A stretch of 64,000 nucleotides of DNA from positions 62,001-126,000 of the forward strand of contig CM030729.1 in the NCBI GenBank assembly GCA_018127085.1. Reading direction: 5' to 3'. A model generated the notes under the pieces. The model worked only from the letters and a program-made list of their open reading frames with translations, ran no database searches and was not told where the DNA came from. The translations under genes were made by a program, and so were the position numbers. This DNA is from Pneumocystis sp. 'macacae'. Lineage: Eukaryota > Ascomycota > Pneumocystomycetes > Pneumocystales > Pneumocystaceae. Position 1 is the first letter of the stretch; the number at the start of each line of letters is the position of its first letter. This document shows positions 1,046 to 33,400 of this stretch, piece after piece.

Positions 1046-1737
1046 TATAGGTAAACAAATCAATTAGCTGTCTATATATGACTTTTTTGTTTATATAACA
1101 TATAAACACTTTTCTCAATTTTTTGTTTCAATTTTCTATTTTTAATCAAATATTATTCAAATATTTTTAATTAAACTTCAATTTTTTGCAATTTATATTT
1201 GCACTCAGAATAATTTTTTCTTATACTATTTGTGCTTTTAAAACAACCGAAGCTTTATTTATCTCTTTTAATTTCGCGTCTAAAGAGGCTGAATATTTAT
1301 GTATTTTATGAACTTATTTGCTATCAATTTCGAGAGTGGAGAGTTAACCAGCCTTTTTTTTTATTTTAATATGTAAAAATATTAAAGAAATAAGAAAACT
1401 GTTTTATCTATATAAATATATATGAAATTATATATTTTTATGGAATTATATATTTTTTAAAGAAAAATGGTATTTATATTATTTTTAATATTTTATTTTA
1501 TTTTTGAAATTTTTAAATAACAGTTTCACTTTTCTTAATAAAGAATTTAGATTGATATTAATAAAATAAATACCAAACAATATTTCAATTTAAAAATATA
1601 TTAGTTATTCCATGTTTTATGTGTTTGAATGTTTTTTATATTTTCTTGTTTTTCTTACAGTTTTTATAAATATATTTTGTCTTATCTAAAAAGTGCGATT
1701 TAAATATATATTGATTTGAAAATTAAGAATTAAGTAG
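1046..1737. other. Divergent intergenic region, 0.7 kb
   Basis: It separates two divergently transcribed genes. It is very AT-rich with poly(A) and poly(T) runs. I see no ORF, tRNA or repeat. The only notable element is TTTCGCGTC near 1272-1280, a CGCG core that is rare in this AT-rich setting. Confidence 0.5.
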
Positions 1738-2888: not shown

Positions 2889-2975
2889 TCATACATGAAT
2901 ATTATAATATTAGTGTACAATACTCTTTTTTTATAAAAAATTGTATCAGATTTATCGTAAATATTCTTAGAAATG

Positions 2976-4477: not shown

Positions 4478-5221
4478 AATGTTATTGGTTATAATGTTTG
4501 GCTTTATTAAGTTTAAAATTTTGAAGAAAATATACAAATGAAATTTATTTTAACGGAAGTACCAATTTAAATATGTTTATTGTTTCATATCAAACATAGC
4601 TATTTATCTTATTTTTTATGTTTGTTTTAATAAAATGATATATACAATTATCTGTTATATAAAAATATTTAAAAAAGTTAAATTGAAAATAAAAGGATTT
4701 ATTTGTTTTTTTTTTGAATTTTTTTAATATTTATATATTTTTGTTGAAAGATTTTTTTTATATTTGAATCAAGAATATTCTTTTATTAAAAAATTAATAG
4801 ATATTTTATTAAAAAAATTTACAAGAGTACTATTTTTAATAGTTATTTAAGTAAATATGATGTTTTTCATTTGAAAAATAATTATTATATATTTAATAAA
4901 TAATGGTTTTGAAATAAATAAAATTTATATTTTCTAATATTTAATTTTTTTATAATTTATGTAAAAAATATAGTAATTTAATAAATAGATAATTTTTATT
5001 TAAATTATAGAAATACAAGATATGTAAAATTTTTATTAATTTTATTAAGTTTTATCTTAATAAATAATAAAACATTTAGCAGGACCGATTAAGTAAAATA
5101 ATAATTTTAAAAAATTAATAAATTTTTGACTTAAATCAATTCATTTTAAAAGAATTTTTATTTTCTAGAATCAAAAATCTCTATTAAAATAAGAAATTAT
5201 CAACTATTTTTGTGTAAATAA
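4478..5221. other. AT-rich divergent intergenic region, 0.74 kb
   Basis: It lies between the 5' ends of YTM1 and the AVT3-like gene. The sequence is almost only A and T, with short TTTAAT and TTAATA motifs. I see no gene, RNA or repeat unit here. It presumably holds both promoters. Confidence 0.5.
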
Positions 5222-7446: not shown

Positions 7447-7578
7447 AAATAAAGCAGTTTATATCATTAATTATAAATTGTGAAATTAATTATTTTTCGT
7501 AAAAAAGTAAATTCATTAAGATACCAAAATGAACAAAGCAAATACATTTATATTTAGTATATAAATAAAAAAATTATT

Positions 7579-10500: not shown

Positions 10501-11674
10501 TTAGATATTTTCCTAAAATATTCAATGCTGTTAATATAGTAAAATCCTATGATTATTTAACGCAATTTTTTTTTAAAAAATAAAAAAATACATTGGCTGA
10601 AGGTCCAAGCCACCCTAAAAGAACTTCTCCTGCACTTTCATCCTCGTCAGGAAAGAGAACAATTTCTTTGCAAGATTCTGTCAAAGGAGGAGTTTTTATT
10701 GAATCAACCCATGGTCTAATAGTAAGAAAGGTCCCTTAAACTGTTTTTGAAAATATACCTTTTCCAATGAATTAAATCTGGTGTAAGATTTTTAAGAATG
10801 CTGGGCTCAATAATTTCATCAAGCACATAAAAAAGCTTACATATATCAACCTTCCCTGTAATAATAAGGCATAGGTTTTGAGGAAGATAGTATTCTGAAT
10901 GATATTTTCGAATTGTTTCAATATTTAATGTCCTCAATGATTCTAATTTTCCTCCGGTATGACTTCTATAACCAATTCCCTCAGGAAAGAGAGCACGGTT
11001 AAAACTAAATTATTAAAAAAATTCTCTCAGATATTTAAGATTTATTACTGTATTGACTGTAAATCCTCTAGTGTATTTTCATGTCCCTTTTAAGTATTAT
11101 ATAAAAATATAATGTTTACTAAAACAATTACCTGCATCTCACAATATACAACTCCAGCATCATTCCCTTGTCCGTCAATATGGTAGACTTCTGTATAAAA
11201 CCCATCATATGTAAGTGTAGGAAAAATAATATGATCGACAAATATAGGAAGAATTTGTAAAAATCCTTCTGCTCCTGCTGTACTAATTGTATACGCTGTA
11301 TGATCTGTATCTAAAAAAATTTGCAATTCATATATATGTTGCATAAAGTAGTACCTGTCCATGCATTGGTACCCTGTGCAAAAGAGCGATTTGCTAAAGA
11401 ATCCAAGATACCCTTATATGGGTATGTTTTGCTACCAAGAAATATCAAATGTTCTAGTGTATGAGGACATCCAGAGTCATTAAGAACTATAAATTGTTGG
11501 TTTCATGCATTTCAGACGCATATACTTGCTTTCAGTGGCAAGTACAAGTTTTCCTTTAGTCAAGGGTACGTTGATATCCACATATACAACCTGAAGACCT
11601 GTTTTGTGGCTTTTCCATGACTGTACGCGCCTTCCATACGCTTCAAAATCGTATTTTTTAATAAAATATGTCAT
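7579..11674 (-). CDS. M16 family zinc metalloprotease, Sdd3/C05D11.1 type
   Basis: A large M16C-like peptidase similar to the little-studied fungal Sdd3 (YOL098C) group. The start is ATG 11674 (MTYFIKKYDFEAYGRR); the TTG 9 nt upstream is not needed. Key residues: the inverted zinc site HTLEH in GCPHTLEHLIFLGSKTYPYKG, then ANRSFAQGTNAWTDTDHTAY, and the downstream acidic ligand in DAGVVYCEMQ, so the active site appears complete. Later pieces include RTLNIETIRKYHSEYY with LPQNLCLIITG, and GPSANVLFFK-like C-terminal M16 segments. Many small introns of 40-60 nt split it. The first, 11487-11529, begins with GC, not GT (A/GCAAGT), and gives the family sequence ATEILNDSGCPHTLEH. The end is TAA at 7579-7581. 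A second, different M16 gene (CYM1) lies at 43.8-47.3 kb. Confidence 0.85.
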
Positions 11675-12108
11675 TTTAGACAATTATATGTGTACTGCTA
11701 TTTTGTAAAATATCGAGTAATGTACGGTCTTAAAGACTAGATTTAAAAAAGTTTATATTTATTTGTGAAATCGTAGGAATTAAGAGATAAGATTTTATGT
11801 AAAAATATTATTTTTTGAAAATATAAATATCATTATTGTTTTATGCATAATTTTGCAAGATATATTTAATTTATAAGGGAATCAACAAATGCTTCGTTAT
11901 AATTAGAAAATAGGTTATATTTCAAAAAATGAATACTATATAATCTTTGAATTAGCTATATAATGTTATTTTTTTTTAAAATCTTTTTATAGTATTTTTT
12001 AGAATTTATTAGCGACTTTCTATAAACTATTTAAATTGTATGAAATTAAAAAAAAAACTATTAATCAGGTGCAAAGACTTTATTTATATTCCTGAAAATT
12101 GCAAATAG
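11675..12108. other. Divergent intergenic region, 0.43 kb
   Basis: AT-rich spacer between the 5' ends of the M16 protease gene and the Dsl1/ZW10 gene. No ORF, RNA gene or clear motif is seen. Confidence 0.45.
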
Positions 12109-14907
12109 ATGGATAGAATATGTATATCGAAAAATATGTATGCAATTTCCAATGAAAATCCCGAAATAATGGATACAATGATATTACGGTCTATTTTGGA
12201 TGACCAGGAGTCATTGCAAAAACTATCTAAGCAGGAAATGCCATTGGAGACCGTTTTTCAGCAAGTTGAATCTGAAATAGATAAAATCCGGGTTTTTACT
12301 AGTTTATATTTGTGATAATTGCTAATATAAGTATATAGGAAATACTTTTTAATTTGATTTTAAAAAATCAGAAATTGTTTTTAAGAATCATAAGTCAAAA
12401 AACTGAATTTTTTCAAAAAATAGAACATCTTGTTTCTAGTTCAGCTATTCTTTCTGAAGTTAGTATTAATAATAAAGTAATTTTCTATTTCTATTTTTAT
12501 AAAACCAATTTTTATTTTATAGAAAAATTCAAAAATACTTCAAGAAAAGAGCGAAAAATTGAAAGAATTGAAAGCTTCAATAAAAGTGAAAAAAAATCTA
12601 AAGGACTCTATTCTAAAATTAAAATCTATAATTAGTTTAACTAATAAAGCGGAAAGTCTTATTACTGAAGGAAGTTTATTTGATGCTTTTCATATAATAA
12701 AAGAAGCAGAAAATAAGTGTGATAATATCAATGGGCATGAAAAAATTGAAATTTTAGTTTCTTTTAAAGAAAAGTTATCTAATCTTAAATTGTCTTTAAT
12801 TGGAAAATTTAACAATATTTGGGATTATTTTATAATATTTGAAGGTGGTTGTATAGTTAAAAAGCAATTAAAAGGTACGAAAATTTTATTTTTTTCTATA
12901 TTAATAAATTGTAAAGATTCATTTCAAAAAGATATATCTTTAGCATCTTTTTTAGAATTGTCTATAGAACTTAAAATATTTGATTCCCGTATGTTGCTAA
13001 TTTCTAATAATTTTATATCAAAATTTCTATTTCTTTTCTTAGATAAAGAAAATTTTTATACATTGGAATTGAATGAAAACAATAATGAATATCAATTAAT
13101 TATTAAATCTGATATTTCAAAAGAAAATGGTATATCTTTAAAATATATTAAACCATTTATTTAACACCTTAGAATCTATTTTTCCGTCTTTATTAATACT
13201 AGTTAATTTTATAGAGAAAGCATTTCCATCTATCATGTTATTGGATTTAACTAAATATCTTTTTCCTAAAATACAATCAGTTTTAATTAAAGATTATATC
13301 GCTAGTATTGTACCGGATGAAATTGAATACTTAGGTTGTTTTAATAAAATACTTATAGAAGCTTTTAGATTTAATGATAAGATTAAACAAACTGTATGGG
13401 GCAATCAATTAGAAATAAAAAAATGGATAAACTTTGCATGTGACTCATGGATTTTGAAACAGAAATCTAATGCTATAGATGCTGTTAGAAATATTTTAAA
13501 TTCAAAAAATCCTGAAAATATTTTTCAAACTGTACAAAATATTGAAAATAAACTTGTTCAAAATGAAAATGTGGATTTTAATGACAATAATGAATGGGAT
13601 ATGTATTGGAATAACAATGATAAATATGTTGCTAATGGCGAGAAAAATATAGCTATTATGGAAAATGATAGATGGGAACTAAATAATGATGTGGATATTG
13701 AATCTGAAAATAGCTCTTTGAAAGAAGAATTATGGAATTGGGATGATAACGATGATTGGAATGTAAACGTAGAAAAATCCAATGATATGAAAGATATAAA
13801 AAATAATGGAAAAAAAACGTCTTTATCTGAATTTTCAATATGTGAAAATTACACAATTTCTTTTTTGCCTAAAGAAATTATTCTTATTGTCAAAAAATGT
13901 ATTTATACTATAAAAGAATTGATGGGTCCTCAGTAAATAATAGACGTTATTTTGAATTACACTAATAACTATTTATAGATATGTAGATTATATGATGGTT
14001 TCTTTTTTTCCTCAATTATCTGATTCAATAATAATGGCACTAAGCACATATAGAGCTCTTGCTCCTTTATACTATGATAAGTTATCAACATCTCCTATGT
14101 TATTATATAATGATTTTATTTATCTTTCAATACATCTTCAGGAACTATATGATGGTTCCGAAACTCTACGATGCATTCTTGACGAAAGTAATATTTTCCG
14201 TGAAGCGGGTAACCTTATATATTTTTCTGAGCTTGTAAGGATATTTAATGCAAATATATGTATTGATCTTAATAGCAAATGCAAAATAATAATATTATTT
14301 CAATTCTAGAAAAAGCAAATGGATTTGTGGATTGTACAGATAAACAACAGCTAGAAAGATGTATGTGTGTTATTTCAGATTTGCATGAAAAGTTTCAAAT
14401 GTTATCTGAATTATGGAGAGTAAATATTTCTAAATTATATTATGTAAATATATTAATATTTTTAGCAAATTCTTTCTAGAGAAGCATTATTTGAGTCTAT
14501 TGGTCAGCTTTTAGAAAGTGCTGTTTCTTATATTATTACTGCAATTAAAAATATTTCTGATATATCCGAGGAAGAATCTAAACAACTTTCAAAATTATGT
14601 AATCAATTTGCCCAAGTAGAAGACATTTTTGTTACCAAAAAACAAGAAGTTAGTCGCCATTATATGTCTAAGTTATATTAACAGCATATTTTATTAGCTT
14701 CCTATAACACCAACGTATGTTCCGAGTTGGTTAAAATTTCGATATCTCGCAGAAATTCTTGAAGCCTCAATGCATGATGTTATGTATTTATATAATTCTG
14801 GTGCCTTAATTGACTTCGAAAAAGAAGAAATTATAAGTTTGCTTAAAACATTATTTGCAGAAACACCTTGTCGAACAGAAAATATTTCAAAAATTAGAAA
14901 CAGTTAG
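12109..14907 (+). CDS. DSL1: ZW10/Dsl1 family vesicle-tether (or RZZ) subunit
   Basis: Fungal Dsl1/ZW10 proteins tether COPI vesicles at the ER. Start ATG 12109. The N-terminal half is helical and coiled (ENPEIMDTMILRSILDDQESL, KLKELKASIKVKKNLKDSI, SLITEGSLFDAFHIIKEAE). A strongly acidic, Trp/Asn/Asp-rich segment at 13560-13800 contains NEWDMYWNNND, DRWELNND, ELWNWDDNDDW. In yeast Dsl1 such an acidic Trp-containing loop binds coatomer. The C-terminus has the ZW10 signature: PSWLKFRYLAEILEASMHDV, then YNSGALIDFEKEEI and LLKTLFAETPCRTENISKI. The stop is TAG at 14905-14907. About eight introns (for example near 12290-12335, 12476-12521, 13165-13215, 13936-13979, 14265-14310, 14420-14480, 14670-14720) break the ORF. 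Family is well supported; Dsl1 rather than kinetochore ZW10 role is inferred from the Trp loop. Confidence 0.8.
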
Positions 14908-14966
14908 TTTTATCCATATAAATATAATAAAATAGATAGAAAAATCTTATTTTGAATTAAAAAGGA

Positions 14967-15228
14967 CTAGTGCGTCAGATATTTTCTTTTTTTTGCTATT
15001 CTTCGAGCAAGAATTCTGCGTCCACTAGCAGACCGTTTCCGAGCAAGAAATCCATGTCTTCGTTTTCTTACTCTATTTGAAGGTTGATATTCTGAAAGTA
15101 TATACCTAAGTTTGTCTGGGAAGTTATTTTCATATATAATTACCTCTTCCATAAGTTCGAAAACGTTTAATATTCAATAAGACTATTGATGGAAAAAATC
15201 TTAGGGACAACTTTTTAGTTTGGAACAT
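14967..15228 (-). CDS. MRPL34: Mitochondrial large ribosomal subunit protein bL34m
   Basis: The C-terminal half is unmistakable bL34: [18 protein letters not shown] then [18 protein letters not shown] and the end LTH before TAG 14967. The simple ORF would start [10 protein letters not shown] at 15152, but an intron at 15092-15143 (GTAATT...TTTCAG) joins, in frame, to an upstream exon starting at ATG 15228. That gives [20 protein letters not shown] plus KRFRTYGRE, a classic basic, non-acidic mitochondrial targeting peptide, and a 69-aa precursor. I prefer this model because the ORF start would lack any targeting signal. It is divergent from the proteasome gene PRE7 with about 395 nt between. 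Confidence 0.9.
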
Positions 15229-15623
15229 AAAAAAACTACTTGTCAAAATCAAATTGTGTGTTTGAGCCAATGAAGTATAAAATTTTTGTACTTGTTGCAT
15301 ATTCGGATTTATTTTTAAGATATTTTGATATAGATAATTTTGTATACATCTATAAGTATCAATAATTTTTTTTTTATAAAATAATTATTACTTATTAAAA
15401 GGAACATTTTTCCTTCTAAAATTATAATTTTTCATGTAAAATACGTTTTTTAAAGTATCAAATTTGAATAAATTTTTAAAATTCATTATCAATAAAGTTG
15501 TACTTAGTGTAAGGTAACGGAATCGAGAAAGTAAATGTTAATTGATTAAACTTTTAAAATAATAAAATACTCTCTGAAATTATATAATACGCTCATAATA
15601 TTTAAGTATTTATTAAACACGCT
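15229..15623. other. Divergent intergenic region bL34m/PRE7
   Basis: AT-rich spacer of about 0.4 kb holding both promoters. I see no ORF or RNA gene. Confidence 0.4.
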
Positions 15624-16676
15624 ATGGATACTTTTTTTCAAAATGTCTATGGTCCTCCATCTGATTTAGATGACCCTAGTTTGAGTGACGGATTTAAATC
15701 TATTTTTCTGCATTCAGGATTTAAGTGAATCTGTATGCTAATTAGAAAGGAATATACTAATATATATAAAATAGCCCATATCAGGATAATGGAGGACTTT
15801 CTATTGCAATTTCAGGCAATAATTATGTGGTTCTTGCGGGAAATACGCGTCAAGTAAAAGATTATAGTATCCAATCAAGATATCAACCTAAAGTGTTTGA
15901 CATTGGCGATGGATTAATTGTTAGTACGTGTGGATTTTCTGGGGATTCTAATGAAGTTATACGGGTTTTGAGGAAACGATTAATGCTATATCATCATAAG
16001 CACAATCGACAACTCAGTGTTAAGTCTGCAGCACGGCTTATACAGACAATTCTTTATAGTAGACGCTTTTTTCCTTATTATACTTATGTAATGGTTGTGG
16101 GTATGGATGAAGAAGGTATGTTTGTTATTTTTTGGAAAAACTAATTGTTATTAGGCAAAGGCGCAATCTATACATTTGACCCAGTTGGGTCTTATGAAAG
16201 GGTCTCTTATAATGCAATAGGAAGCTCTGCTAGTCTTGCATTACCGTTATTAGATAGTCAGGTATGGATATAAATTATCAGTAATGAGGAAAATCCTAGA
16301 CATGTATAATTTCTAGAAAAACTATTTTATACAGGATATATGGCTCTTGATAGTTATTTATATTATTGGATATTTTTAGTGGCATCTTTTGCAATCATTA
16401 ACATAGCTTTTATAGGTTGGTCGTAAGAATCAGTATGAAACAGTAGATGGACATCTTCAATCATGCATTCCAACTCCTTTGTCTCTCGAGCAAGCAGTAA
16501 AAATGATTATCGATACATATACAAGTGTTTCTGAGCGCCATATACAGGTATGGATTTCTATTTTAATTAAAATGAACTAATATTTACCATATTTTTAGAT
16601 TGGTGATAAATTTCAAGTGTTTATTGAGACAAAAAATGGTATACATATACAGGAATATCCATTGAGACGAGATTGA
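15624..16676 (+). CDS. PRE7: 20S proteasome subunit beta-6 (Pre7/PSMB1)
   Basis: A non-catalytic beta subunit of the 20S core. From ATG 15624 it reads [19 protein letters not shown]; an intron starting GTGAATCT after GGATTTAA and ending at AAATAG (about 15780) gives the family junction [18 protein letters not shown]. Then come [40 protein letters not shown], the long helix [60 protein letters not shown], and the end [19 protein letters not shown] and YPLRRD before TGA 16674. There is no catalytic Thr1, as expected for beta-6. Further introns are at about 16115-16155, 16262-16417 (longer, near 155 nt) and 16548-16598. Its partner ECM29 is also in this window. Confidence 0.93.
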
Positions 16677-16984
16677 TTGCATAGTGTACATTATTTTTTG
16701 TTTCGAATAATCGATTTTTTTACAACCTTAATACTTTTTTATACTTTTTGCTATGTTTAAAAAGAATTTAAATTTAAAAAAAAAGAAAACAAAGCGGACA
16801 TAGTTATTAGTATGAAAATTATGCAATTGAAAGGTGATTATAAAAAGCGATTAAAAATATTGGAATTATTTTTTGCAAGTACAGACTTTTTTGAATACTT
16901 CTATAGATTATAGTAAAATAAATAATAAGATGTAATTAGAAATAACAGTATATAATGTGAAAGATATAATATGCGATATTGTTT

Positions 16985-17588
16985 TCATGTTTTTTTAAAT
17001 GATTCGTACCCGCGAAAGCTAACAAACATCCAAAATTGCCATATTAAGTCGAAAAACGCAAAAGTAAATGTTAATCCGTTTGACATTGCTGGATTATTTG
17101 AAAAATAAATACATAGTGCTAATATAAAAGCCAACATTGTTCGAAATGGTGCTATGATATAAATAGATTTTTTTTTTTAAAATATATTTACCTAAATCTT
17201 TAAAAAACATCATATCTGTTTTAAGTAATGCAAAAAGATAAATGAAAAATAGATGAAACAACAATAGTCCTCCAACTACTACACATGTTGGATCTTCGCT
17301 TGGTCGTGCCTATCTCCTATTAGTTATGGTTTATTTAAAATCTAGCTGTAACAAAATGAGTTGTATGATAACTGAACTACACTTCGGTCAGCCTAAATTA
17401 AGGCTTAATCGATTTTATAAATTTTTGCTACAGTTATAAAAGTTTTACTTTACCAGATTCATGGCATCGCCTAAAACATAAATAAGACCTTGTTCAAGAA
17501 CTTTATGTGGACATAATATACATGAAATGCTTAATGTACACAAAATCACCAAATAGCTTTTTAATTGTGCCTGGACTCCAATTAGCAT
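16985..17588 (-). CDS. ILM1: Ilm1-family membrane protein
   Basis: Ilm1 (increased loss of mitochondrial DNA) is a small fungal ER-type multi-pass protein of uncertain biochemical role. Start ATG 17588, stop TGA 16985; removing introns 17310-17453 (144 nt) and 17152-17191 (40 nt) gives 139 aa. Segments in order: hydrophobic SYLVILCTLSISCILCP, the family-like motif LIYVLGDAMNL-ARPSEDPT, helix VVVGGLLLFHLFFIYLFALL, APFRTMLAFILALCIYF, and FFDLIWQFWMFVSFRGYE at the C-terminus. The 144-nt intron is about three times the local norm. The family call is from the GDAMNL/ARPSED junction and the four-helix layout; I am fairly, not fully, sure. Confidence 0.7.
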
Positions 17589-18425
17589 TCCCGGTTAATA
17601 TTAAAGTAAAAATAAAAGCTAAAACAATAAAAATAAATAATGATTAATTGATTATAGAAAAAAATAAAAAAGAGTTTTTATCCTTTAAAAGTTTTCTGTT
17701 GAATAGTATAATATTCTTTTTAAATCTTAAGGCTTTTTAAAAATTCCGAATTTTAAACTTCAGTTCTAGACAAAGTTTAATTGAATTCTTGCTAAAATTT
17801 AATTTTTAATTAAACCTTAAAAAATTAAAAATATAGTTACTTAAAAATTAAAATAAAGTTCTAAGAAAATTTTTGTATTTTTAATTAATCTTATTGTTTT
17901 GTCTATGTGTTAAATAACTTTAAAATTAAGAGTGATAAAGAGTTAAACTCGAAATTTAAAACGCTGAAGCTTTATAAATTTAAAGAAATTGAAGATTAAA
18001 AGCTTAAAACTTGAAAACTTAAATTTTTTAATAAGTTTTTAAAATTTAATTTAAAAATCTTATTTTTTACAAATGTTCAACTTAGATCGTTCTCTTAATT
18101 ACATTAATTTAGTTAAATTTTATAATAATCATCTTTAAGCGTTAATTATTTGCTAATTTTACTTCAATTTGACGTTGATAGCCTTAAAAACTTTGATAAA
18201 ACTTTGAAATTGATAAATCGTAGTTTTGTATTAATTTTTTTGACTGAATATTTAAACATTCTACAAGTTCTGATTGTCATTATAAAAATAAATTTCTAAA
18301 AAACCCAACACATTGCGGATTTTACTTAATATACATATAACATAACATTGCAATTAAGTATATATTGAATATGTGTCAAATATGTGCTAAAAGTTTTTGG
18401 AAGTGAAAATACATACATTTTTGGA
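17589..18425. other. Divergent AT-rich intergenic region, 0.84 kb
   Basis: It lies between the 5' ends of ILM1 and the mL59 gene. It is low complexity, with repeated TTAAA, CTTAAA and TTTAAAA words over about 17690-18070 but no exact tandem unit. I see no gene in it. Confidence 0.45.
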
Positions 18426-19279
18426 ATGATGCAAATAGATCAAAAGATCTTACGAAAATTGCCGCGTACACTTGCAGGATTTCTTCGAAAACATCTAGCT
18501 GCAAGCATAGAAGGTGGTCTTGCAGCAAGAAATTTATTTAGATGCGTTAAAAATAAAGAAACTGGTTGTTGGAAAGATCCGATTTATTCATTACGTCGTC
18601 AAGCAGTGCTGCGCAAAGAAGCAGAAAGATATGGTCTTTCTGAATGGCTACCACCCCGAAAAGATTCTAAACGAGCACCAATGAGTGGTATTTCTCGTTG
18701 GAAAGGCACACTTGGTGAGCGTACACGAACACAGAGGTGAGTTACTGCAAAAATCAATAATATGAAGTAAAATGAGTGGAAAAGTATACTCATAGGAATA
18801 TAAGGAAAACAGAGAGAAGGATTTGTGTGTATATTAGAAGGAAGAACATGAAGGATGTATAGGAACATGCATATCAAAATATATTTATTTTGGATATAAA
18901 CAGGATATAACGCTTATAAGCAGAAGATGATATCTATATATAACTTAACATATTAAGTTAAGTACTTGATACATTATCAATGAATATGATTCACTTTATT
19001 GTATCATATAGTTCCGATACATTTAGGGTTTACTAGTTAAAGTGCAAAAGAAGCATAAGTATATATAGGGTGTTGTGTTCTATTTAGAATTTTTCTTTGT
19101 TGAAATTTGTAATAAAAACTAACTTTTAAAGGGCGGCACGATTACAAAAAGCATTGGAAGAACAGCCACAGAAAATAGCTGCTTGGAAGGCGGTACGTTG
19201 ATTTATGTATGCAAGTCTGTTGACATCTCTATAGGCAAGGAGAAAAAAATCAAGCGAAAAAGATATTTTTATTTCGTAA
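18426..19279 (+). CDS. MRPL25: Mitochondrial large ribosomal subunit protein mL59 (MRPL25)
   Basis: From ATG 18426 (in-frame ATG also at 18429) the product is about 138 aa: MMQIDQKILRKLPRTLAGFL, then CVKNKETGCWKDPIYSLRRQ and AVLRKEAERYGLSEWLPPRK. It continues in RWKGTLGERTRTQR-AARLQK, LEEQPQKIAAWKA, ARRKKSSEKDIFIS. The motif of charged residues after a tryptophan-rich YSLRRQA segment is the mL59 signature. The product is a structural protein of the fungal mitoribosome. Two introns keep the frame: 18737-19131 (395 nt, GTGAGT...AAAG, phase 2) and 19193-19234 (42 nt). The first is about nine times the usual size here. The longer reading from a GTG at 18384 is unnecessary. The gene ends about 370 nt before PRP28. 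Confidence 0.88.
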
Positions 19280-19648: not shown

Positions 19649-22497
19649 ATGGATATATCCAAAAAGTCTTTAGATAATAACGAAAATCTTTGCATTAATG
19701 GGACATTTTCTTCAGGGATGGCTCTGGATGGTAATTGTGAAAACATAATGCTGGATGAACCACCACCATTGCCACTTTCTTATCCTCCGCCACTGCCTAA
19801 GGAAGGCATGGCATTGTGTCTAGATGGGCCCAAACAGCTGTCTTCTTCTATTGAGGGGCTTAGTGGTGAAATATTTCCGCATAGTGCAACTGAAAAACAT
19901 GATGGGTTCAACAGAATTGCAGATCACTCAGCAGCTACCGCTTCAGCAAGAGCACCTGGACCCGCAGTTGGGGCTGTCTCAGGAAACACTGCAGTCTTGA
20001 AGGCAGAAAAGAAGGAGCCCCTGTCTATTGAAGAACTAGTCAAGAAGAAGAAAGAGGCTGCTGCTATGAATCGAGTAAGGAATGCATTTGGCAGGCTTTG
20101 CTGGTTAACAAAAGTAGCCAAAGTTCTTAACCCGAGAACAGCGCGAGGCAATTGCTCTCGAAAAGCGTCGTTTGGAAGTCGAGAAGCGCCGGCAAATCGA
20201 AAAAAACAATATAGACATGGCAAAAAAGCGTTCTCTGGAAGACCCCGAGAATGCTTTTCATGCCAAGACAAAAGGCAAGTGTGTTGTCCACAATGTACTA
20301 GCCATTTACGTTTAGATGCCCGCCACTCAGGCCGCAGCAAAGCCATTCCTACCGAGCCAAAGGCTATGAGGAAGGAACAAGATGCCCTCGCAAAGCGGAC
20401 TGCCGAGCTGTTTAAGTCGTCCCCAAAGAACCAGGAGCCCAAGTCCGGGATGACCCCCGAGGAAAAAGAAATCGACGACATCCGGGTAGCTATACTGGCA
20501 TTCGAGAAAACCCTCATGTCTCTAGAAAAGATATCTGGGCACCAGTGACACCAAGAAGAAGAAACGCAAGACAACCGAAAGAAAGTTTGTCTTCGACTGG
20601 GACAACACCGAAGACACCTCCTCCGACGTCAACCCAATATACTCCAACCGACACAGCGCCCAGTTCCTCGGCCGCGGAAGACTCGGCGGCTTCGACAACA
20701 AAGACTCCAGCCACTACACCCGCTCCTTCATCGACATGCTTGTCCGCTCCGGCAACGACGAAGACAGAGACCGCGCCAGACAGCTCATCGACATGGAGCA
20801 CCGCAGAGCCTCCAAAATCAGCTGGGACGACAAACACTGGTCCGAAAAACCCCTCGAGCTCATGAAGGAGCGTGACTGGCGTATATTCAAGGAGGACTTC
20901 AACATCTCCTCAAAAGGTACCCCCCCGCCCCCGCCCTGCCCCTAATCCCCAGGCGGCTCCATCCCAAACCCCATCCGCTCCTGGAAAGAGTCCGGCCTCC
21001 CCAAAATCCTCCTCGACATGGTCGAAATCGTCGGATACAAAGACCCCTCCCCCATACAGAGAGCCGCCATCCCCATCGGCCTCCAGAACCGCGACATCAT
21101 CGGCATTGCCGAGACCGGCTCCGGCAAAACCGCCTCCTTCGTCCTCCCCATGCTCGTATACATCTCCACCCTCCCGCCCCTCGGCGAACACAACAAAAAC
21201 GACGGCCCCTACGCCATCATCCTCGCCCCCACCCGCGAGCTTGCCCTCCAGATCGAGACCGAGACAAAGAAGTTTTCCGACCCAATGGATTTCGTCTGTG
21301 TCTCCATCGTCGGCGGCCACCGGATCGAGGAACAGGCCTTCAACCTCCGCGACGGCGTCCACATCGTCATTGCCACCCCCGGCCGCCTCCTCGACTGTCT
21401 CGAGCGCCGCGTCCTCGTCCTCAGCCAGTGTGCCTACATCGTCCTCGACGAGGCAGACCGCATGATCGATCTCGGCTTCGAAGACACCGTCAACAGACTC
21501 CTCGACGCACTCCCCGTCCACAACCAGAAACCCGACTCCGACGACGCCGAAAACCCCCTCCTCATGTCCAGAATCATCGCCGGCAAGGAGCGCTTCCGCC
21601 AGACCGTCATGTTCAGTGCAACCATGCCGCCCCCCGTCGAGAAGCTCGCCAAGAAGTATCTCCGCCGCCCCGCCGTCGTCACCATAGGCAACGCCGGCCA
21701 GGCCGTCGACACCGTCCTCCAGCTCGTCGAGATGATGAGCACCGAGGACAAGAAGAGGTGCGTCTCCCCACCCCACCATACCCAGCCCTGCCCTGCCTTC
21801 CTACACCCTAGCCCAACCCCTAAACCCTCTACCCAACCCTTCCCTAACCCTCTGCCTAGCCCTACCCTGCCTGGTGCTGACTGCTGCAGACGCCGGCTCG
21901 AGGAGCTCCTCAACAGCAACGACTATCCGCCACCCGTCATCATCTTCACCAACCAGCGGCGCAGCTGCGACGCCCTCGCCAAGTCGCTTGCCCGCATCGG
22001 CGTATGTCCCGCAGCCCATGCGTCTCTGACTGCCCAGTGGAACGCCGTCACACTGCACGGCGGAAAGAGCCAGGAACAGCGCGAGGCTGCGCTCGCGCAG
22101 CTGCGCTCAGGCAGCGCCGACTGCCTTGTCGCGACAGACCTTGCTGGCCGCGGCATCGACGTCGCCGATGTCTCGCTTGTCGTCAACTTCAGCATGGCCA
22201 AGACCATCGAGGGTAGTGCTCTCTGTGCTGCTGTGCGCTGCTGATGCCGCAGACTACACACACCGCATCGGCCGGACAGGCCGTGCCGGCAAGTCCGGGA
22301 CAGCCATTACGTTTCTGACGCCCGACGACACAGACATCATGTATGACCTGCGGGTGGCAATCAGCAAGAGCAGCATCTCGCGGGTCCCCGACTGGCTGCG
22401 GATGCACGAGGCTGCGCAGCGCAAGCAGGACAAGCAGCCGGCGAAGAAGACGGCCGACGAGCTGCTGTTCCAGATCCCCGCGGGGCGCTGGTACTAG
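19649..22497 (+). CDS. PRP28: DEAD-box pre-mRNA splicing helicase Prp28 (DDX23)
   Basis: Prp28 displaces U1 snRNP from the 5' splice site so that U6 can pair. Start [14 protein letters not shown], Pro-rich N-terminus ([13 protein letters not shown]), the family box [15 protein letters not shown], then [20 protein letters not shown] and [20 protein letters not shown]. Helicase motifs: Q motif ([14 protein letters not shown]), [75 protein letters not shown]. Seven introns (20075-20117, 20279-20337, 20486-20525, 20917-20952, 21758-21889, 22002-22037, 22213-22252) leave exactly 820 codons plus stop. The N-terminal exon is AT-rich; from about 20.3 kb codons end almost always in G or C. The 132-nt intron carries telomere-like repeats. 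LSM6 starts only 25 nt after its stop. Confidence 0.95.
21758..21889 (+). repeat. Degenerate CCCTAA telomere-like repeats in PRP28 intron 5
   Basis: The intron (GTGCGT...CTGCAG) is 132 nt, against 36-59 nt for the other six PRP28 introns. From about 21800 to 21875 it is built of variants such as CCCTAGCCCAACCCCTAAA, CCCTTCCCTAACCCTCTGCC and TAGCCCTACCCTG. The sense strand is the C-rich strand. Confidence 0.8.
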
Positions 22498-22522
22498 TGC
22501 GCGGGGGGGCGGGGGTGCGCGC

Positions 22523-22771
22523 ATGGAGCGCAGCGGGAGCGATGCGCCGGCAGCGTTTCTGCAGGACATTGTGGGGCGGCGAGTGCGCGTCCGGCTCAAC
22601 TCGGGCATCGACTACCGCGGGGTCCTGTCGTGTCTGGACGGGTGCATGAATGTTGCGCTGGAGGAGTGCGGCGAGTATGTCGAGGGCGAGCTGAAGAACG
22701 AGTATGGCGATGCGTTTATCCGCGGCAACAATGTCCTGTACATTGCAGCGGACGGGGCATGTGGCGGCTGA
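22523..22771 (+). CDS. LSM6: U6 snRNA-associated Sm-like protein LSm6
   Basis: An 82-aa, intron-free gene. LSm6 is part of the LSm2-8 ring on U6 snRNA and of the cytoplasmic LSm1-7 decapping ring. Visible Sm folds: Sm1 from FLQDIVGRRVRVRLNSGIDY with RGVLSCLDGCMNVALEE, and Sm2 DAFIRGNNVLYIA with the RNA-binding IRGNN. The length matches the family (about 80 aa). ATG 22523 is chosen because LSm6 proteins begin just before the first helix; the longer open frame upstream is the PRP28 tail in another frame. The start lies 25 nt after the PRP28 stop, and the end is 107 nt from the convergent SAD1 stop. Third codon positions are nearly all G or C. Confidence 0.95.
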   Translation: MERSGSDAPAAFLQDIVGRRVRVRLNSGIDYRGVLSCLDGCMNVALEECGEYVEGELKNEYGDAFIRGNNVLYIAADGACGG

Positions 22772-22878
22772 GAGTCCGTGCGGCGGCAGCGCCGCACAGG
22801 TGAAGCGCCGCGTTGCTGTGCCGTCGCGTGTTGCGCAGGGCCACGCGGCACAGCGCAGGCGGCAACGGCGCCGGCAGC

Positions 22879-24698
22879 CTATGCACGGGGCCGGCGCTCC
22901 CATATCTGCTGGTCAGTGGCCGGCGGGGCGGGTGGGAGGGCACACCTGGATGTAGCTTTCGTGGAGAAAGAGCATCTCGCGGGGGATCTCGTCGACATAG
23001 AGGTCGTGGATCTGGTACCACGTGTCGGTCGACTTGGAGCGGACCTGTGTGCGGAAGACACGCCTGTCGCCGTCGGTCGACGACAGTGTCTCGTGGACGA
23101 TGTTTGCACAGAGGTCGTAGAGGACGGGGGCAGCGGGGCGGACGGCGGAGTCGATGTCTGTGGTCAGCACAGCAGGAGAGGGGGGCGTACATGGACGCAT
23201 GTCGAGGTCTCTGACGGGGAAGGTGACGATGGTCGGGTTTTTTTCGTCGCGCCAGTTGTTCTTTGTGAAGCGGCGGATGTGGAAGACGAGGAACGGGGGG
23301 AGCACAGTGAGTGTGTGGCGCTTGCGGAGCCCCGACAGCTCCTGTGCAGTCGATCCGTCGTACTTTGCAAGGAGAGCAGACAGCGGCACCTGCGGGATGA
23401 TGTCCTGGAACTCGTCCTGGAGAAGGGGGGGGAGCGGCAGGTCGAGGGTGAGGAAGAGGAAGGGAGAGAGGTGGTCGCGGAGGTCGGCAGCAGCACGAAA
23501 GCGGAGGCGGTCGGCGTCGTCAGAGGTGGCAATGATCTGCTGGGTAAAGATGCGGACAGTGCCCTGGAAGATGCGGTGGACGATGCTGCCGCGGGGGGAG
23601 CGGAGGTCGCGGTGGAGTCTGTTGAGGAGCCAGGACAGGAAGTCGAGCGGGTCGCTCTGGTGGGCGAGGCGGAAGTGGCCGGCAGACGCCGCGCAGACCT
23701 CCTGGAGCAGCTCGTGGGGCGAGACGTGGGCGCGGAAGGCGCGCGGGTTCCATATCTTGCGTATCAGGATGCTCAGTCGCTGGGCTAGGCCGGTCAGGGC
23801 AGGGTTGGGGTTGGTAGGGTTGGGGTTAGGGTTCATGAAGGTAGGGTAGGGTTAGGGTATAGGAAGGAGGGTTGGGGTAGGGCTGGGCGGCGGGAGGCAT
23901 ACCGAGCTCGCTGCAGCCGGCAAAGTCGTGGAGGATAAAGTAGTTTCTGAAGGGCGCCACGTGCGACAGTGCGTGGACGACGCAGTTGAGATAGTTGTTC
24001 TGCTTGATGTTGTTGAGCCCGACAAAGCCTGTGTCTCAGCGGACAGGACTGCGGCAGGAGGCGTACCTGGAAAGTACTTGTTGTTGTCGAGGTCGTAGGA
24101 GGGCTCTGTGTGTGTGTCGAGGGCGAGGACCTGCTGCCTGGAATAGGTGGGGTTGAGGACGTATTTGATGTCGTCGAGGGCATTTGTGCGGACCTCGTAT
24201 GAGTCGGGGAGGACGTATATCTTGAGGGAGTGGAGATTGATGTAGACGTGGTGTGCCTCGTCGAGGCTGTGGAAGTATGCGTGGGAGGAGGGCCCGCGGC
24301 CTGGGATGTCAGTGGGGTGCTAGGGGCGGAGGATGGGGAGACCCTGGAAGTACTTGCCGCAGATAAGACAGGCGTAGACATTGAGGTTTGAGAGGGAGAT
24401 GGAGCAGAGTTTTTCAAAGTCAAAGTCGAGGCGTGTTCTGTCGACCTTTTTGTCTTAGAGGGGGGAGGGGGGAGGGGGGGAGGGGTACGGTGTCGAGATA
24501 CATGTCTACGGGGGGGTGGGGAGGAGTGGGGGGGGTTTGCAGAGGGGAGGTGTCATGTAGAGCGTCTTTTTTAGTGGAGAAGAGGGGGGTTTTTTGAGGA
24601 GGAGTGTCTTGCCCAGTGTGCAGTGCCAGAGACCCGTGTTCTTGTTCTTGTGCGCGGGTCGGAGTGCCGGAGTTGCCGGAGAGCCTTCTTTTTGGCAT
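22879..24698 (-). CDS. SAD1: Tri-snRNP assembly factor Sad1 (USP39), inactive ubiquitin hydrolase fold
   Basis: Sad1/USP39 is needed for U4/U6.U5 tri-snRNP stability. Start ATG 24698 (MPKRRLSGNSGTPTRAQEQE), then MYLDT-VDRTRLDFDFEKLCS, a UBP-type zinc finger (VYACLICGKYFQGRGPSSHA, FHSLDEAHHVYINL), and a USP-fold domain. The site that carries the catalytic Cys in true USPs reads GLNNIKQNNYLNCVVHALS, with Asn in its place. His-region: YDLCANIVHE; end HESYIQ-IWERRPRA. Introns: just after DMYLDT (C-only tract), at FQG/RG, at FPG/FVG, 23785-23902 (118 nt, telomere-like), at LDM near 23170-23205, and after SYIQ near 22907-22945. Expected to be catalytically dead, as in the family. It shares a 73-nt divergent promoter with the MetRS gene. 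Confidence 0.93.
23785..23902 (-). repeat. Degenerate TTAGGG/CCCTAA repeats in a SAD1 intron
   Basis: On the plus strand the core reads GGGTTGGGGTTAGGGTTC and GGTAGGGTTAGGGTATAGG, within about 23798-23880. In the sense (minus) direction the intron is therefore CCCTAACCC-rich, the same orientation relative to transcription as in the PRP28 intron. The intron is 118 nt, the longest in the gene, and splicing it keeps the frame (G/CC, Ala). Confidence 0.85.
24456..24540 (+). other. Clustered G-runs, potential G-quadruplexes
   Basis: Two groups of long G runs lie on the plus strand at about 24459-24485 and 24509-24536, each with four or more runs of at least four G. They are the template-strand face of SAD1 exon 1 and intron 1, so the transcript is C-rich. 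Confidence 0.75.
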
Positions 24699-24771
24699 TT
24701 TTGAGGTGAGCCGTGGGTGCCGATTTTGACTCGAAAAATATTAAATTCGAGGGGGACGGGGAGAAGCGGGG
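24699..24771. promoter_or_regulatory. 73-nt divergent SAD1/MSM1 promoter region
   Basis: The two start codons point away from each other with 73 nt between, inside the GC-rich island. A short AT patch (AAAAATATTAAATT near 24733) is the only TATA-like piece. Whether the true 5' ends lie here is inferred. Confidence 0.5.
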
Positions 24772-26653
24772 ATGGTGCAGGCGGGGGGCACGAGGAGGCC
24801 GTTTCGGGCGCTTGTCCGTGCAGCCGGGGCGGCGGGTCCCTTGTTGTTTTCGAGGAAAAACAGCCATGGGTCGGGGAAGCCGTACTATATTACGGCGCCG
24901 GTTTTCTATGTCAATTCAGGTGGAGAAAGTCTTTTGTTTTGGCGCGCTTATCGCAGTCCAGACCCCCATGTTGGCCATTTGTACACGCTTGTTTTGGGCG
25001 ATGTGATCCAGAGATACCAGCAGCTTAAAGACTCCCGGGTTGTCTTTAGAATTGGAACGGACGAGCATGGGATCAAAGTGGATATTCTTCCAGAGGCTTT
25101 TGAAGACTGCTAAAGGCTCACCAGATCCAGAAAGAGGCTTTGAAGTGCGGCCTGGATCCGCTTTTGTTCTGTGAAAAGACGTCACAGCGTTTTAAATACT
25201 TGGCCACGTTGGCGAATATTGGCTACAAGGATTTCATGCGTACAACGGACCCTAGGCACTGCCAGGGTGTCCGCCACTTCTGGAGGGTTTTGGAAGAGAG
25301 TGGGTATATTTATCAAGGCAGACATGAGGGATGGTATTCCATTAGTGACGAGACCTTTTATCCGTCGAGTGCAGTGAGGACTGTCGAGAATCTGGAGGAT
25401 GGCACTACGTCTACTGTAGACAGTGTGTGGTTTTTGCACCTTTGTTTCTAACCTGGTTTAGATTTCAATTGAAACGGGCACTAATGTTGAATGGATGTCT
25501 GAAAACAATTATCATTTTCGGCTGTCTGTCTTCAAGGACCGTCTTCTGGATCATTACAGAAAAAACCCCGGCTTCATTGTTCCAAATTCCTTGCAAGATT
25601 TTTTGTACAAGACAATCTCTGACGGACTAAGTGATATAAGTATATCGAGGCCGAGTTCTCGCTATTCATGGGGTATTTCTGTGCCCGGCGATGACTCGCA
25701 TACTATATATGTGTGGTTTGATGCCTTGCTGAGTTATATAACCAGTGCTGGATACCCATGGAATGACTCGGTCTTTGGAGAATGGCCTGCTGATGTTCAT
25801 TTGATTGGTAAAGATATTCTTCGGTAAGTTTCTTTGCATATTTTCCCTACATAGTTTTTCATTTTTAAATAGATTTCATTGTATATTATGGCCAGCACTT
25901 TTAATTGCTGCAAAGTTGCCTCTTCCTTGTCAAATTGTATCTCATTCACACTGGACAATGAATAACATTAAAATGTCTAAGTCGCTTGGGAATATTGTTG
26001 ATCCATTTGCCGAGATTCAGAAATTTACTGTTGATGCTGTAAGGTATTTCCTTATAAAATACGGGAGACTTGATAATGATCGAGGTTACTTCTATATTCT
26101 TTATTTTATTGTTTTTTAATATTACTAAGATTATGATTCATCAGATGTTCTAAAAGATTATGACATAGATCTTAGAGGACAGCTTGGAAACCTTCTGTTA
26201 AGAATTCTTTCCCCTCATTTTGATTTAAAACGTGCTTTGCTTTATTCAAAAAATCATATAAATGAAGATGCTTTGTTTCAAGATTTTGATATAAAGCTTA
26301 ATACAATTGCAGAAAATATTGATAATTATATGGCTTCGTTTCGTGTTCATGCTGCTTTAGAGGCTATTTTTGATTTTATAGGATCTATTAATAAGTTTTT
26401 TCAGAATTTTGAGCCATGGAAATATAAACATGATTCTTCTAAAGTTGATCCTGTCCTTTTTAGAACTTTAGAAGCTATACGCATTTCCGGCATTTTGTTA
26501 AAGCCTTTTATTCCTGATAAAGCATCTGAAATATTAGATCAATTGGGTGTTGAGGTTTCTCGAAGAAATTTGAAGTTTTGTAAATTAGGTGCTGATGATG
26601 GATATTTACGAGTTCAGTATACACAAAATAAACCCTTGTTTCCAAAACTGTGA
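24772..26653 (+). CDS. MSM1: Mitochondrial methionyl-tRNA synthetase
   Basis: A class I synthetase charging mitochondrial Met tRNA. Start ATG 24772: MVQAGGTRRPFRALVRAAGA is Arg-rich and lacks acids, as expected for a mitochondrial presequence. Then KPYYITAPVFYVNS-DPHVGH with the HIGH-type motif HVGH, RIGTDEHGIK, EVEWMS-like NVEWMSENNYHFRL, VWFDALLSYITSAG, and the KMSKS loop in IKMSKSLGNIVDP. The C-terminal helical anticodon domain follows (KFFQNFEPWKYKHDS, KPFIPDKASEILDQLGVE). Introns that keep the frame: after VNS (ends GTCCAG), after GIK (to CACCAG), after STVDS, after KDILR, and near 26083-26130. Codon use goes from GC-rich in the first exons to AT-rich by 26 kb, without a break in the protein. 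Confidence 0.92.
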
Positions 26654-30475: not shown

Positions 30476-33400
30476 ATGGCAGATAAAGAATTAAAATTGT
30501 TGTTTTAATTTTTTAAAAAAAAAGGCTAATGTAAATAGACTTAATGGTGTTGAATTTCATTTGGCCTTAGCAGATACAGATATTAAACTAGAAAATATTT
30601 TAAAGATTTATTTATGTCCCACGCTTTTAAAACTAGCAAGTCCACATGATATTGTAAGGAAAAAAGTACTTAATTAATGAGAATTTTAAACTCTAGTTCT
30701 TATTTAATTAGGTGGTTCAAATCTGTAGTCATATTCGTATACGGACGAAATCAAATGAGAACATAAAATTCCCAATAGATGCATTGCTAGAACAATTTCA
30801 CTCTAAAGATGTTGGGAATTCTACAAAGGGCTTTACTCTTCTGTTTTTGGATATGGCTTTTTCTAGGTTAGATCAAGAAGTAAGTAAAAGACAACTAGAA
30901 TTTTATATTTTTAAAATTATTTAGGAAAAGAAGAAATTATTGTCCAAGTTAATACCAGGGCTTTCAAAATACTCTATTGAACATAAGAAACGGATTATAC
31001 ATTTAATTTTGAATATTTTAGGAGTATATGGTTCTTCTGAAGATTCAATTTATCAATTTGAAAATGATGATTCTATAAAATCAATTTTCGATTCTGGACT
31101 TTTTTTTGAAGATTTTTCATTTCTGGCGAAAGTATTTAAGGATTTGGCGTTGTTTTCATTGTCCTATTTTCATTCTTTGTTAAAAAAAATATCTCAAACA
31201 AAGATTCAAGAATTTTCATTTTCTAATTATTTTGATAAAACTAATTCATTTGATAATATTGATTATTCTTTACAAATTTCTGTTCTGAAGAAAACTTGTC
31301 CAGGTTTATCTTTTGATTCTTTGAAACTTTTAACACCAAAAGGAAATGATACATTTACTATAGATTCACTTGCTAAAATAAAAATAGGCACTATATGGTT
31401 TCTTTCTACATCTTACTTCTCATTAGATCAAAAATTTACTACACTTAGTGTTTTTAAATTTGATTCTGATGACAATATTAGTCTTATTGCTAATACTTGT
31501 CTTAAAAAATTGCCTAATATTGATTTAGAAAATGAAAAAATAATTGAGAATATATATGAACTTTTACTCGGAAATAATGAAGGATTAGAAACAATGCATA
31601 GGGATCCTGTTTCTTCTCGAATCTATATATATTTTATAAATCTTTTATCGAAGAGTCAATTTGCTGTTAAAAATATGGAAAATATACCTAAGTTATTAAG
31701 TTATGGTTTACAAAGTATTCTTTTGAGATCAATATACAAATATTTAATGGTATTAGGTAATATTGAAAAATTGGGAGAATCAACAGTTAGTTTTATTAAT
31801 TGGATTGCAAAGTATATTATTAAAATAAAAAGTAAAGTTTTAATTTTCTAGGATATCAAGTGATGAGTCTTTGAAATCCGTTTCTTTATCTATTTTAAAT
31901 TTACTGTTGACTTATATTCAGAATAGTGATAGTAAAAGTGAAATTTTAAGAGAACATTTATTTACGTCTCTTGGACTTATTGCCAAAAGAGGTCTGATTG
32001 GTATTTTTTTAATGTTATTAATATATATAGGAATGGAGAATATGGAAATTTCTATTTTAAGACTTTTGTTTGATTCTCTTAAAAAAGAGACGAAATTGGT
32101 TAGGTTTTCTATAGAACAATCACTTTCTTTAATAATACCCCATTTTCAAAATATTGAAGAGAAATTTTTAGACGAATTAAATACACTATTATTTGAAATT
32201 ATTATTTCTAATCACATAGATATACATTTTTCTGCACTTCGCTATTGTTTGACAGTGTTTCCTTTTCATGAAAGTAAAGCAAGAATGTTGTGTCTACTTT
32301 GTTTAAGAGAAAATTGTAAGCCCGAAGTTATAGAAGAAGCAAAAAAAGGATTAAATCCATATTGGTTTTTGGTACTTAATCAACAGAAAGATCCGAAACA
32401 AACTTCAGATACTGTTTTCTTAAGAAATAATCATAACACCTTTCTTTTTCCTGTTTTTGAAGATTTAATTGAAACGTTGGAGAATCAAAAAGTTAATAAT
32501 GGAGACAATTTTTTTAGTCAATCTTTTCAGATATATGCCCCTTGTGTTAAAGTCTATATGATAAAATTTATTCGGCAGACATTAATTATGAATCTTTTGC
32601 GATTTGATGATAATATTTGGAATAGAATTCCCTTAAGTAAGACGTGGGAAGAACAACTTGACATTGCCATTAGTAACAATGATAAATTCAGAACAGTATA
32701 TAAAAAAGGTTTTGATATGTTATGGAATAATAATAGTAAATTTAAAAAGTATTTAACTAATTATTTTCAATATCTTGTTACGATTTTTTTCGAAGTTCCT
32801 TCAGAATTTACATATTATGTTCTCGAATTAATTTCACTTGGATCTCCTGATTTAACAATAATGTTAACTGATAAAATTGATTTGCTTAAAACTATTGCAT
32901 TATCATCTAAAGATATTGAATGTGATATATTCCGTGTTTTAGGAATTGTTGGTAGTCATCCTCGTATATCTATTGAAAAAGTTGTAGAATTATTAATATT
33001 ATTTACTCGTGATAAGGTATCTCATGCTAATCAACAATTTATCTCAAAACATGCATCTATATTGTCTTTGGGATATTTATTAAGTCGTTTAAAGTGTAGA
33101 AATCGTTTGACTAGTGTTGACTCTGATTTGCTTAGTGAATGCTATGATTTTATTATTAAAAAAATATCTTCAGATAATAAGCTTGAAAAGAAATCTGCTC
33201 TTATGGCATTTAGTGAATTGAGTATTTTTGATGTTTTTTCAGATTTTAAAATTTTAAATGAACAAAAATTTAATTCTTTAATAATGACAATTCTTGATAT
33301 GTATAAAAAATTCAAAGTAGATACTGTCCTTCGGGAAATTGTAATTACTACATTAGGGAAAATTTCAGTTACTATGAATCCTAAGGATTCTAAGATTGAT

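Follow-up and report, generated by a model that had tools for sequence, protein, structure and literature searches.

GC-rich islands of mirrored strand polarity in Pneumocystis macacae, candidate sites of recurrent strand-specific repair

Recombination sites with GC peaks are known, and the excerpts of the yeast GC3 model (PMC3020949) and of the work on the GC-rich regions of gerbils (PMC7403616) describe a local rise in GC that affects coding and non-coding DNA, declines with distance and, at hotspots of GC-biased gene conversion (gBGC), also alters proteins, all as in the islands described here. The term 'GC skew' is used in the excerpt of the gerbil paper for substitutions that favour G or C, not for an imbalance between the strands (PMC7403616). 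Human meiotic breaks share with the islands a centre, flanks of about 2 kb and mirrored strand-specific mutations (PMC7615360, in the part available), but here the effect has accumulated into permanent islands. Within the same genus, and for Mis12 within the same species, the genic centromeres and Mis12 peaks of Pneumocystis measure 4.8-8 kb, lie over active genes and include several Mis12 peaks per chromosome, like the islands; unlike them, the rodent CENP-A regions are below the genome in GC and occur once per chromosome, and the available part of that preprint mentions no strand skew (PMC10327204).

The window, that is, the whole 64-kb stretch of P. macacae DNA that was analysed, contains one GC-rich island, in which GC peaks at 0.71 against about 0.25 in the surroundings (200 bp windows). 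Flanking GC is 0.258 at positions 1-19,000 and 0.251 at 27,000-64,000, and outside the island the window holds no 2 kb stretch that attains a GC of 0.32. A sequence-only reading of this DNA had reported the island, and the GC profile confirms it, together with hand counts of 42/60 at 21361-21420 and 18/60 at 33181-33240, both of them exact. That reading saw a sharp rise on the left and a gradual fall on the right; the latter holds, but the left edge slopes gradually as well, as shown by 500 bp bins (0.20-0.34 at 17.5-19.5 kb, 0.49 at 20.0-20.5 kb, 0.68 at 22.5-23.0 kb and 0.29 at 26.0-26.5 kb). The features of the locus are as follows.

19829..25354, no strand: GC island at half height (300 bp windows, GC 0.47 or more)
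20400..22337: left arm, where GC skew is negative and the + strand is rich in C
22337: estimated centre, where cumulative G-C within the island is lowest, with some hundred bases of uncertainty
22338..25200: right arm, where GC skew is positive and the + strand is rich in G
19649..22497, + strand: PRP28, DEAD-box splicing helicase, 8 exons, 826 aa, intact
21758..21889, + strand: long C-rich intron of PRP28, 132 nt, with CCCTAA-like repeats
22523..22771, + strand: LSM-domain gene, 82 aa, with an LSM domain match, which we take to be LSM6
22879..24698, - strand: SAD1/USP39-type splicing protein, 7 exons, 501 aa, intact
23785..23902, - strand: long intron of SAD1, 118 nt, with TTAGGG-like repeats, G-rich on the + strand
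24772..26653, + strand: MSM1, methionyl-tRNA synthetase, 6 exons, intact, exiting the island

The island thus crosses four native genes, PRP28, the LSM gene, SAD1/USP39 and MSM1, all intact and spliced. PRP28 enters it and MSM1 leaves it as complete spliced frames, as had been proposed, and exons, introns and spacers all take part in the rise. Intron GC runs, in order,.42,.41,.45,.78,.64,.64 and.62 in PRP28, lies at.62-.78 in the six introns of SAD1, and falls from.50 through.42,.41 and.24 to.16 in MSM1. The PRP28 intron at 20,275-20,315 is of the GC-AG type. RNA genes do not mark the island, the window having neither a tRNA nor a match to Rfam at gathering score.

The most telling property of the locus is its strand polarity. 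Both binned and cumulative skew show that GC skew changes sign near 22,337, a position that falls within the final PRP28 exon, and the same flip, from negative on the left to positive on the right, was found in 21/21 islands regardless of gene strand (19 called via the geometric midpoint, two via bins and cumulative skew). In 19 islands the skew difference between halves is 0.37-0.77, against a mean of 0.00, a standard deviation of 0.13 and a maximum of 0.29 in 158 flanking windows. Since the pattern by which the islands were searched, runs of G or C, is identical on both strands, it cannot have selected for polarity. Skew is limited to about 2.8 kb per side and is near zero past 3.2 kb in the mean of 11-12 islands, and 160 of 161 G-quadruplex motifs lie on the G-rich strand. 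Gene strand is rejected as the cause, because PRP28 and MSM1 share one strand yet show opposite skew; likewise, ORFs on both strands follow their side of the centre.

The other islands come from searches of the very AT-rich P. macacae genome with the G/C-run pattern, in which 8.27 Mb yielded about 44 candidates. DNA was read at 21 of these, the present locus included, and every one proved to be an island; a single contig may carry several, four of those read being on C10. Pattern matches left out comprise five homopolymer-like runs (C6:520,751; C10:1,486, 17,583 and 306,591; C12:166,683) and the eight occurrences of a recurrent motif, located near an end on contigs of known length, while at least three candidates are based on a single near-homopolymeric match (C2:75.9k, C4:234k and C15:256k). 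The candidates stay 72 kb away from contig ends, a statement valid for retained candidates only, because some of the removed matches lie near ends; the candidate at 8 kb on C19, a contig of unknown length, falls outside this test. Spacing is more even than random (32/44 candidates, 10 contigs). Island centres may fall in coding sequence, as at the present locus, LSD1 and RRN3, and one island, that of LSD1, is older than the split from P. jirovecii. Neither the skew flip nor the other islands figured in the sequence-only reading.

At silent sites the polarity is nearly total. The codon test drew on four genes and on the 13 of 20 scanned island ORFs that matched Pfam at an E of 0.001 (the other seven had no match; one of the 13 lies slightly under its curated cut-off). 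At fourfold sites 0.7-1.4 kb from the centre, base frequencies are C.75 and G.10 where the 3' end of the coding strand faces the centre, and C.04 and G.80 otherwise. If the tail strand is defined as the one with its 3' end toward the centre, 35 of the 54 amino-acid replacements that could be classed are changes to C on this strand (12 of 66 changed columns were left out), with G>C occurring 11 times and C>G not once. Part of these G>C replacements could represent two-step paths: a two-step path exists for V>L and M>I is explicable by two silent-path steps, while E>H requires an additional change. Lineage-specific replacements are accelerated in SAD1 (15 vs 1 and 3) and number 25 in LSD1 vs 7 in P. 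jirovecii.

We give roughly even odds to the view that strand-specific repair recurs at the islands, proceeding in both directions from sites that are fixed, and that these are most likely meiotic break hotspots. A DNA process would work outward from the centre repeatedly, over 2-2.5 kb per side, leaving the tail strand with C and the opposite strand with G. Here we infer the break, its meiotic setting and a G-preferring step: a persistent double-strand-break hotspot would break near the centre and be resected, outward repair synthesis would then produce the two G-rich strands, + to the right of the centre and - to the left, and a repair step would favour G on the newly copied strand, either by misincorporation or by mismatch correction tied to the tail strand. 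Ordinary GC-biased conversion would perhaps amplify this step, and coding and non-coding sites would be driven to tail-strand C, up to about 65% GC. Several observations speak for this reading: (i), the arms, spanning about 2-2.5 kb, form a strand-asymmetric footprint on both sides, of the size of resection, as a break hotspot should; (ii), a reach of about 2.5 kb matches tracts of resection and conversion in scale, resection at human hotspots being 1-2 kb (PMC7615360, in part); and (iii), a genome profile search found a Spo11-type domain above cut-off, and UNG-type and TDG/Mug-type glycosylases were also found. The flip in all islands read, its dependence on side and not on gene strand, the replacements toward tail-strand C, and the spacing of the candidates and their distance from contig ends speak for it too.

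Other observations count against repair at break hotspots. At human meiotic hotspots the mutations on the tail strand are C>N and A>N (PMC7615360, in part) whereas the tail strand of the islands gains C, so that the base sign is opposite; breaks of S. cerevisiae are almost excluded from coding sequence according to the excerpt of PMC3020949, whereas island centres can fall within it; two PRP28 introns by the left edge are without C-richness (C 5/G 13 and C 8/G 9); and PRP28 has no excess of lineage-specific replacements (5 in P. macacae vs 0-16 in five relatives). The Y-family polymerase domains IMS and IMS_C gave no match in the genome, in a search where split exons could conceal them and the controls were prokaryotes; this weakens the translesion-synthesis version, and Rev1 or Pol eta are disfavoured as the cause.

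While still short of an even chance, a broader proposition is that primate Pneumocystis carry fixed, evenly spaced sites, at least one of them older than the divergence of P. macacae and P. jirovecii, where a mutational or repair drive that is specific to the strand and acts in both directions, from any base to tail-strand C, overrides AT-biased mutation and bends conserved proteins, and that this drive is distinct from GC-biased gene conversion. No description of a local base-composition drive of this kind was found in the literature searched. If the sites are break hotspots, base composition alone would provide a recombination map of a fungus for which continuous culture is not possible, and one could test directly whether the human pathogen P. 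jirovecii uses the same sites for recombination. Two usually confounded causes of GC peaks, biased conversion and mutagenic repair, are told apart by the strand flip. Repair at such hotspots would also account for odd replacements in conserved splicing and chromatin genes, for annotation errors in GC-rich introns and perhaps for the puzzling extra Mis12 ChIP peaks of P. macacae.

Among the alternatives, efficient replication origins fare best, although we hold them to be improbable. Outward forks would expose the lagging-strand template, and damage or repair would make the strand of leading identity G-rich nearby; G-richness to the right of the centre is the sign usually described for origins, and the even spacing of the candidates fits. 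However, forks go much further than the 2.8 kb to which the skew is confined, the skew along the replicon expected of an origin being absent from the mean of 11-12 islands, and to our knowledge origins do not raise GC so much.

Somewhat less probable still is strand-blind gBGC at a recombination hotspot alone, in which heteroduplex mismatches are resolved toward G or C. It would raise GC across exons, introns and spacers alike and give gently sloping shoulders, which is what is observed, every site class at the locus being raised, introns and third positions included. Yet gBGC has no strand polarity and predicts that C equals G on each strand, so it is contradicted as sole cause by the fourfold C:G ratios on the two sides, the flip in all islands read and the one-way G>C replacements. 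The earlier attribution to GC-biased conversion at a hotspot therefore keeps its hotspot, as the best reading, and loses plain gBGC as the whole explanation.

Bidirectional promoters or R-loops, with G-rich non-template strands running outward, are a distant prospect. Vertebrate CpG-island promoters are GC-rich, with a change of skew sign at the centre and G-quadruplex potential, all as in the islands, and both the skew sign and the placement of the G-quadruplex motifs agree. Unlike at such promoters, genes traverse the arms toward the centre, PRP28 and SAD1 being transcribed in that direction with a C-rich sense strand, and centres can occupy coding exons.

Equally remote is a marking of the islands by kinetochore or centromere-linked chromatin. 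In P. macacae, ChIP of Mis12 produced about 4-6 peaks on each chromosome, with a tendency towards GC-rich regions (PMC10327204, a 2023 preprint, in part), and these peaks are possibly the present islands, which qualifies the earlier statement that no such island had been described in this group. P. murina and P. carinii, on the other hand, have a single CENP-A centromere per chromosome, with a mean GC 3.9% below the genome (PMC10327204, in part), against about 44 candidates on 16 chromosome-level scaffolds (PMC7940399, in part); both number and GC lead us to reject the centromere as a general explanation.

Foreign DNA, host contamination or misassembly, for which only the extreme composition relative to the genome would speak, is rejected with near certainty, as in-frame genes span both edges, the nearest relatives judged by best matches are Pneumocystis (all four named ones among the six best matches for PRP28), Nanopore and Illumina reads underlie the assembly (PMC7940399, in part) and the structure is repeated at the 20 other places read, so that the earlier preference for a local process acting on the DNA itself was well founded.

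The centres of the islands may also share a short motif. GCAGCGC lies within 500 bp of the centre in 19/19 islands, the null mean being already 14.5 islands, and GCAGCGCC does so in 14/19. The best shared 9-mers were equalled by 17/60 order-2 Markov simulations and the 10-mers by 6/60, while 0/60 produced any 7-mer or 8-mer so widely shared.

The GC-rich island noticed in the sequence-only reading is confirmed in the analysed P. macacae genome (8.27 Mb, 19 contigs), and the hand counts made there were exact on recount. On contig C10 (485,010 bases, with telomere repeats at its start), of which positions 62,001-126,000 form the window, GC rises to as much as 0.71 per 200 bp, against about 0.25 on either side. 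Four genes, with 18 introns in total, lie across the island:

PRP28, 8 exons, complete
LSM-domain gene, complete
22879-24698, minus strand, SAD1/USP39, 7 exons, complete
MSM1, 6 exons, complete

The island DNA is native and its composition was altered in place, because: (i), these spliced genes are intact, (ii), the GC of their introns tracks position and, (iii), the six best PRP28 matches (among the best 120 of 3110) comprise four Pneumocystis-named proteins (P. canis, 82 and 81% identity; P. murina, 79%; P. wakefieldiae, 70%) and two further ones at 80-83% identity. Just inside the left edge, the PRP28 intron at 20275-20315 has a GC donor (GCAAGT...TTTAG), which is what a T-to-C change at the splice site would leave. 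Within the island, the public P. macacae SAD1 protein (PMAC_000292) appears to be mis-spliced: GC-rich introns are read through, and exon sequence found in our own SAD1 model and in the orthologues from P. oryctolagi and P. carinii is missing.

The island belongs to a genome-wide set. Searches for long G/C runs pointed to about 44 separate places, leaving aside five runs of homopolymer type and the eight copies of one recurrent motif, and all of the 20 places beyond this island at which the DNA was read are GC islands. Eighteen of them and this one, compared in detail, stay above 50% GC over a width of 2.8-5.4 kb (some being cut off by the 6 kb stretch read), with a mean GC of 0.59-0.66; the other two, each a 4 kb stretch, are similar in look. 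The 32 candidates on ten contigs whose length is known all keep at least 72 kb away from the ends (P = 5e-5 if placing were uniform), and their spacing is more regular than expected by chance (CV 0.50 vs 0.80, P = 0.002), both tests omitting the dropped G/C-run rows, some of which are near ends. Of the 22 candidate islands that come first or last on a contig, nine sit at a distance of 72-84 kb from its end (C2, C3, C5, C10, C11, C14). The recurrent motif, a 19-base G/C run, TGGCGCGGGGGGCGGCGCG or its complement, is near an end on contigs of known length and is probably a subtelomeric repeat:

Copies of the TGGCGCGGGGGGCGGCGCG run (contig:position)
C3:306
C4:553169
C8:480287
C10:472864
C13:6509
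C15:374631
C16:10593
C16:338686

Among the genes in other islands (L004, L014, L015, L018, L021, L028) are those for histone H3, an LSD1-like protein, another SWIRM protein, a BET bromodomain protein, RRN3 and adenylosuccinate synthetase. No description of such islands in Pneumocystis was found in the titles, openings of abstracts and selected passages of the literature searched. Within the same material, the nearest published statement is a remark that Mis12 ChIP peaks of P. macacae, about 4-6 per chromosome and possibly artefactual, tend to lie where GC is high (PMC10327204).

All 19 islands compared in detail are polar: GC skew is negative in the left half and positive in the right, the halves being split at the geometric midpoint, chosen without regard to skew. 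The half-to-half difference is 0.37-0.77, against a mean of 0.00 (sd 0.13, maximum 0.29) in 158 flank windows, and the two 4 kb stretches show the same polarity about their cumulative minimum (-0.32/+0.33 and -0.20/+0.28). At 1.2-1.6 kb from the centre (the estimated skew-flip point), mean + strand letters are A.20 C.43 G.18 T.19 on the left and A.20 C.20 G.40 T.20 on the right; AT skew is small. Let the tail strand be the one with its 3' end facing the centre. Fourfold sites 0.7-1.4 kb from the centre then have C.75 G.10 where the coding strand is the tail strand (n = 307) and C.04 G.80 where it is not (n = 289); two-fold pyrimidine sites have C in.88 vs.64, and two-fold purine sites G in.71 vs.97. 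Non-coding letters match this polarity on the whole: in introns up to 2.7 kb from the centre, the + strand has 138 C and 75 G on the left and 54 C and 174 G on the right, and G exceeds C in 6/6 SAD1 introns and the first three MSM1 introns, though MSM1 is on the opposite strand to SAD1; the exceptions are the two leftmost PRP28 introns and the intron nearest the centre. Within 3 kb of the 19 centres, 160 of 161 G-quadruplex motifs are on the G-rich strand.

Telomere-like repeats follow the polarity as well (left arms, CCCTAA 62 and TTAGGG 1; right arms, CCCTAA 3 and TTAGGG 16; 19 islands). The introns at 21758-21889 and 23785-23902 are about three times as long as the others in this island. 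Within 500 bp of the 19 centres, GCAGCGC and related 7-8-mers recur across more islands than 60 order-2 simulations produced, but 9-10-mers do not, a weak hint of a motif at island centres.

Protein changes have a direction too. PRP28, SAD1 and LSD1 together offer 1022 columns at which the relatives used are in agreement; P. macacae departs from them at 66, of which 54 could be classed. On the tail strand, 35/54 changes end in C: G>C 11, A-or-G>C 11, T>C 8 and A>C 5, the rest being A>G 11, A>T 4, G>A 2, C>T 2 and C>G 0. The earlier base was taken from the shortest codon path, and a few of the G>C changes may be two-step paths. The changes are pushed toward C on the tail strand, which goes beyond a shift from A/T to G/C.

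The sequence-only reading favoured a local process acting on the DNA itself, such as GC-biased gene conversion at a recombination hotspot. Such a local process, perhaps at a hotspot, stands; as an explanation it is incomplete, since the polarity between strands and the existence of a set across the genome call for a strand-specific repair or mutation drive. The process would begin at a fixed centre and extend 2-2.5 kb both ways, on one strand per side, a footprint that looks like double-strand-break repair. In the textbook model of such repair, the newly copied strands are the + strand at right and the - strand at left, and those are the strands that are G-rich here. The genome contains a Spo11-type domain, a uracil glycosylase and a Mug/TDG-type glycosylase match, with a Mug score below the model's curated cut-off. 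The Y-family polymerase domains IMS and IMS_C had no match in the whole genome, the controls (matches in 11/14 and 10/14) being prokaryotes rather than intron-rich genes. Human hotspots show a mirror-image asymmetry between strands over an equal reach; the base sign is opposite in the islands, so the molecular step must differ (PMC7615360).

The lysine/arginine balance of SAD1 is 10/34 in P. macacae, compared with 25/22 for P. oryctolagi and 24/24 for P. carinii, a sign that the latter two species probably lack the present island; PRP28 showed no clear contrast. In 460 columns of the right half of LSD1, whose island is C4:281k, P. macacae and P. jirovecii have 13 residues in common that are not those of P. 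canis, P. wakefieldiae and two further close relatives, and 10 of the 13, by their listed codons, require that the + strand changed to G, which is the expectation right of the centre. Lineage-only changes number 25 in P. macacae and 7 in P. jirovecii. These shared and lineage-only residues place the origin of the LSD1 island before the two species split, an event put at about 62 million years (PMC7940399), and show it to be stronger in P. macacae.
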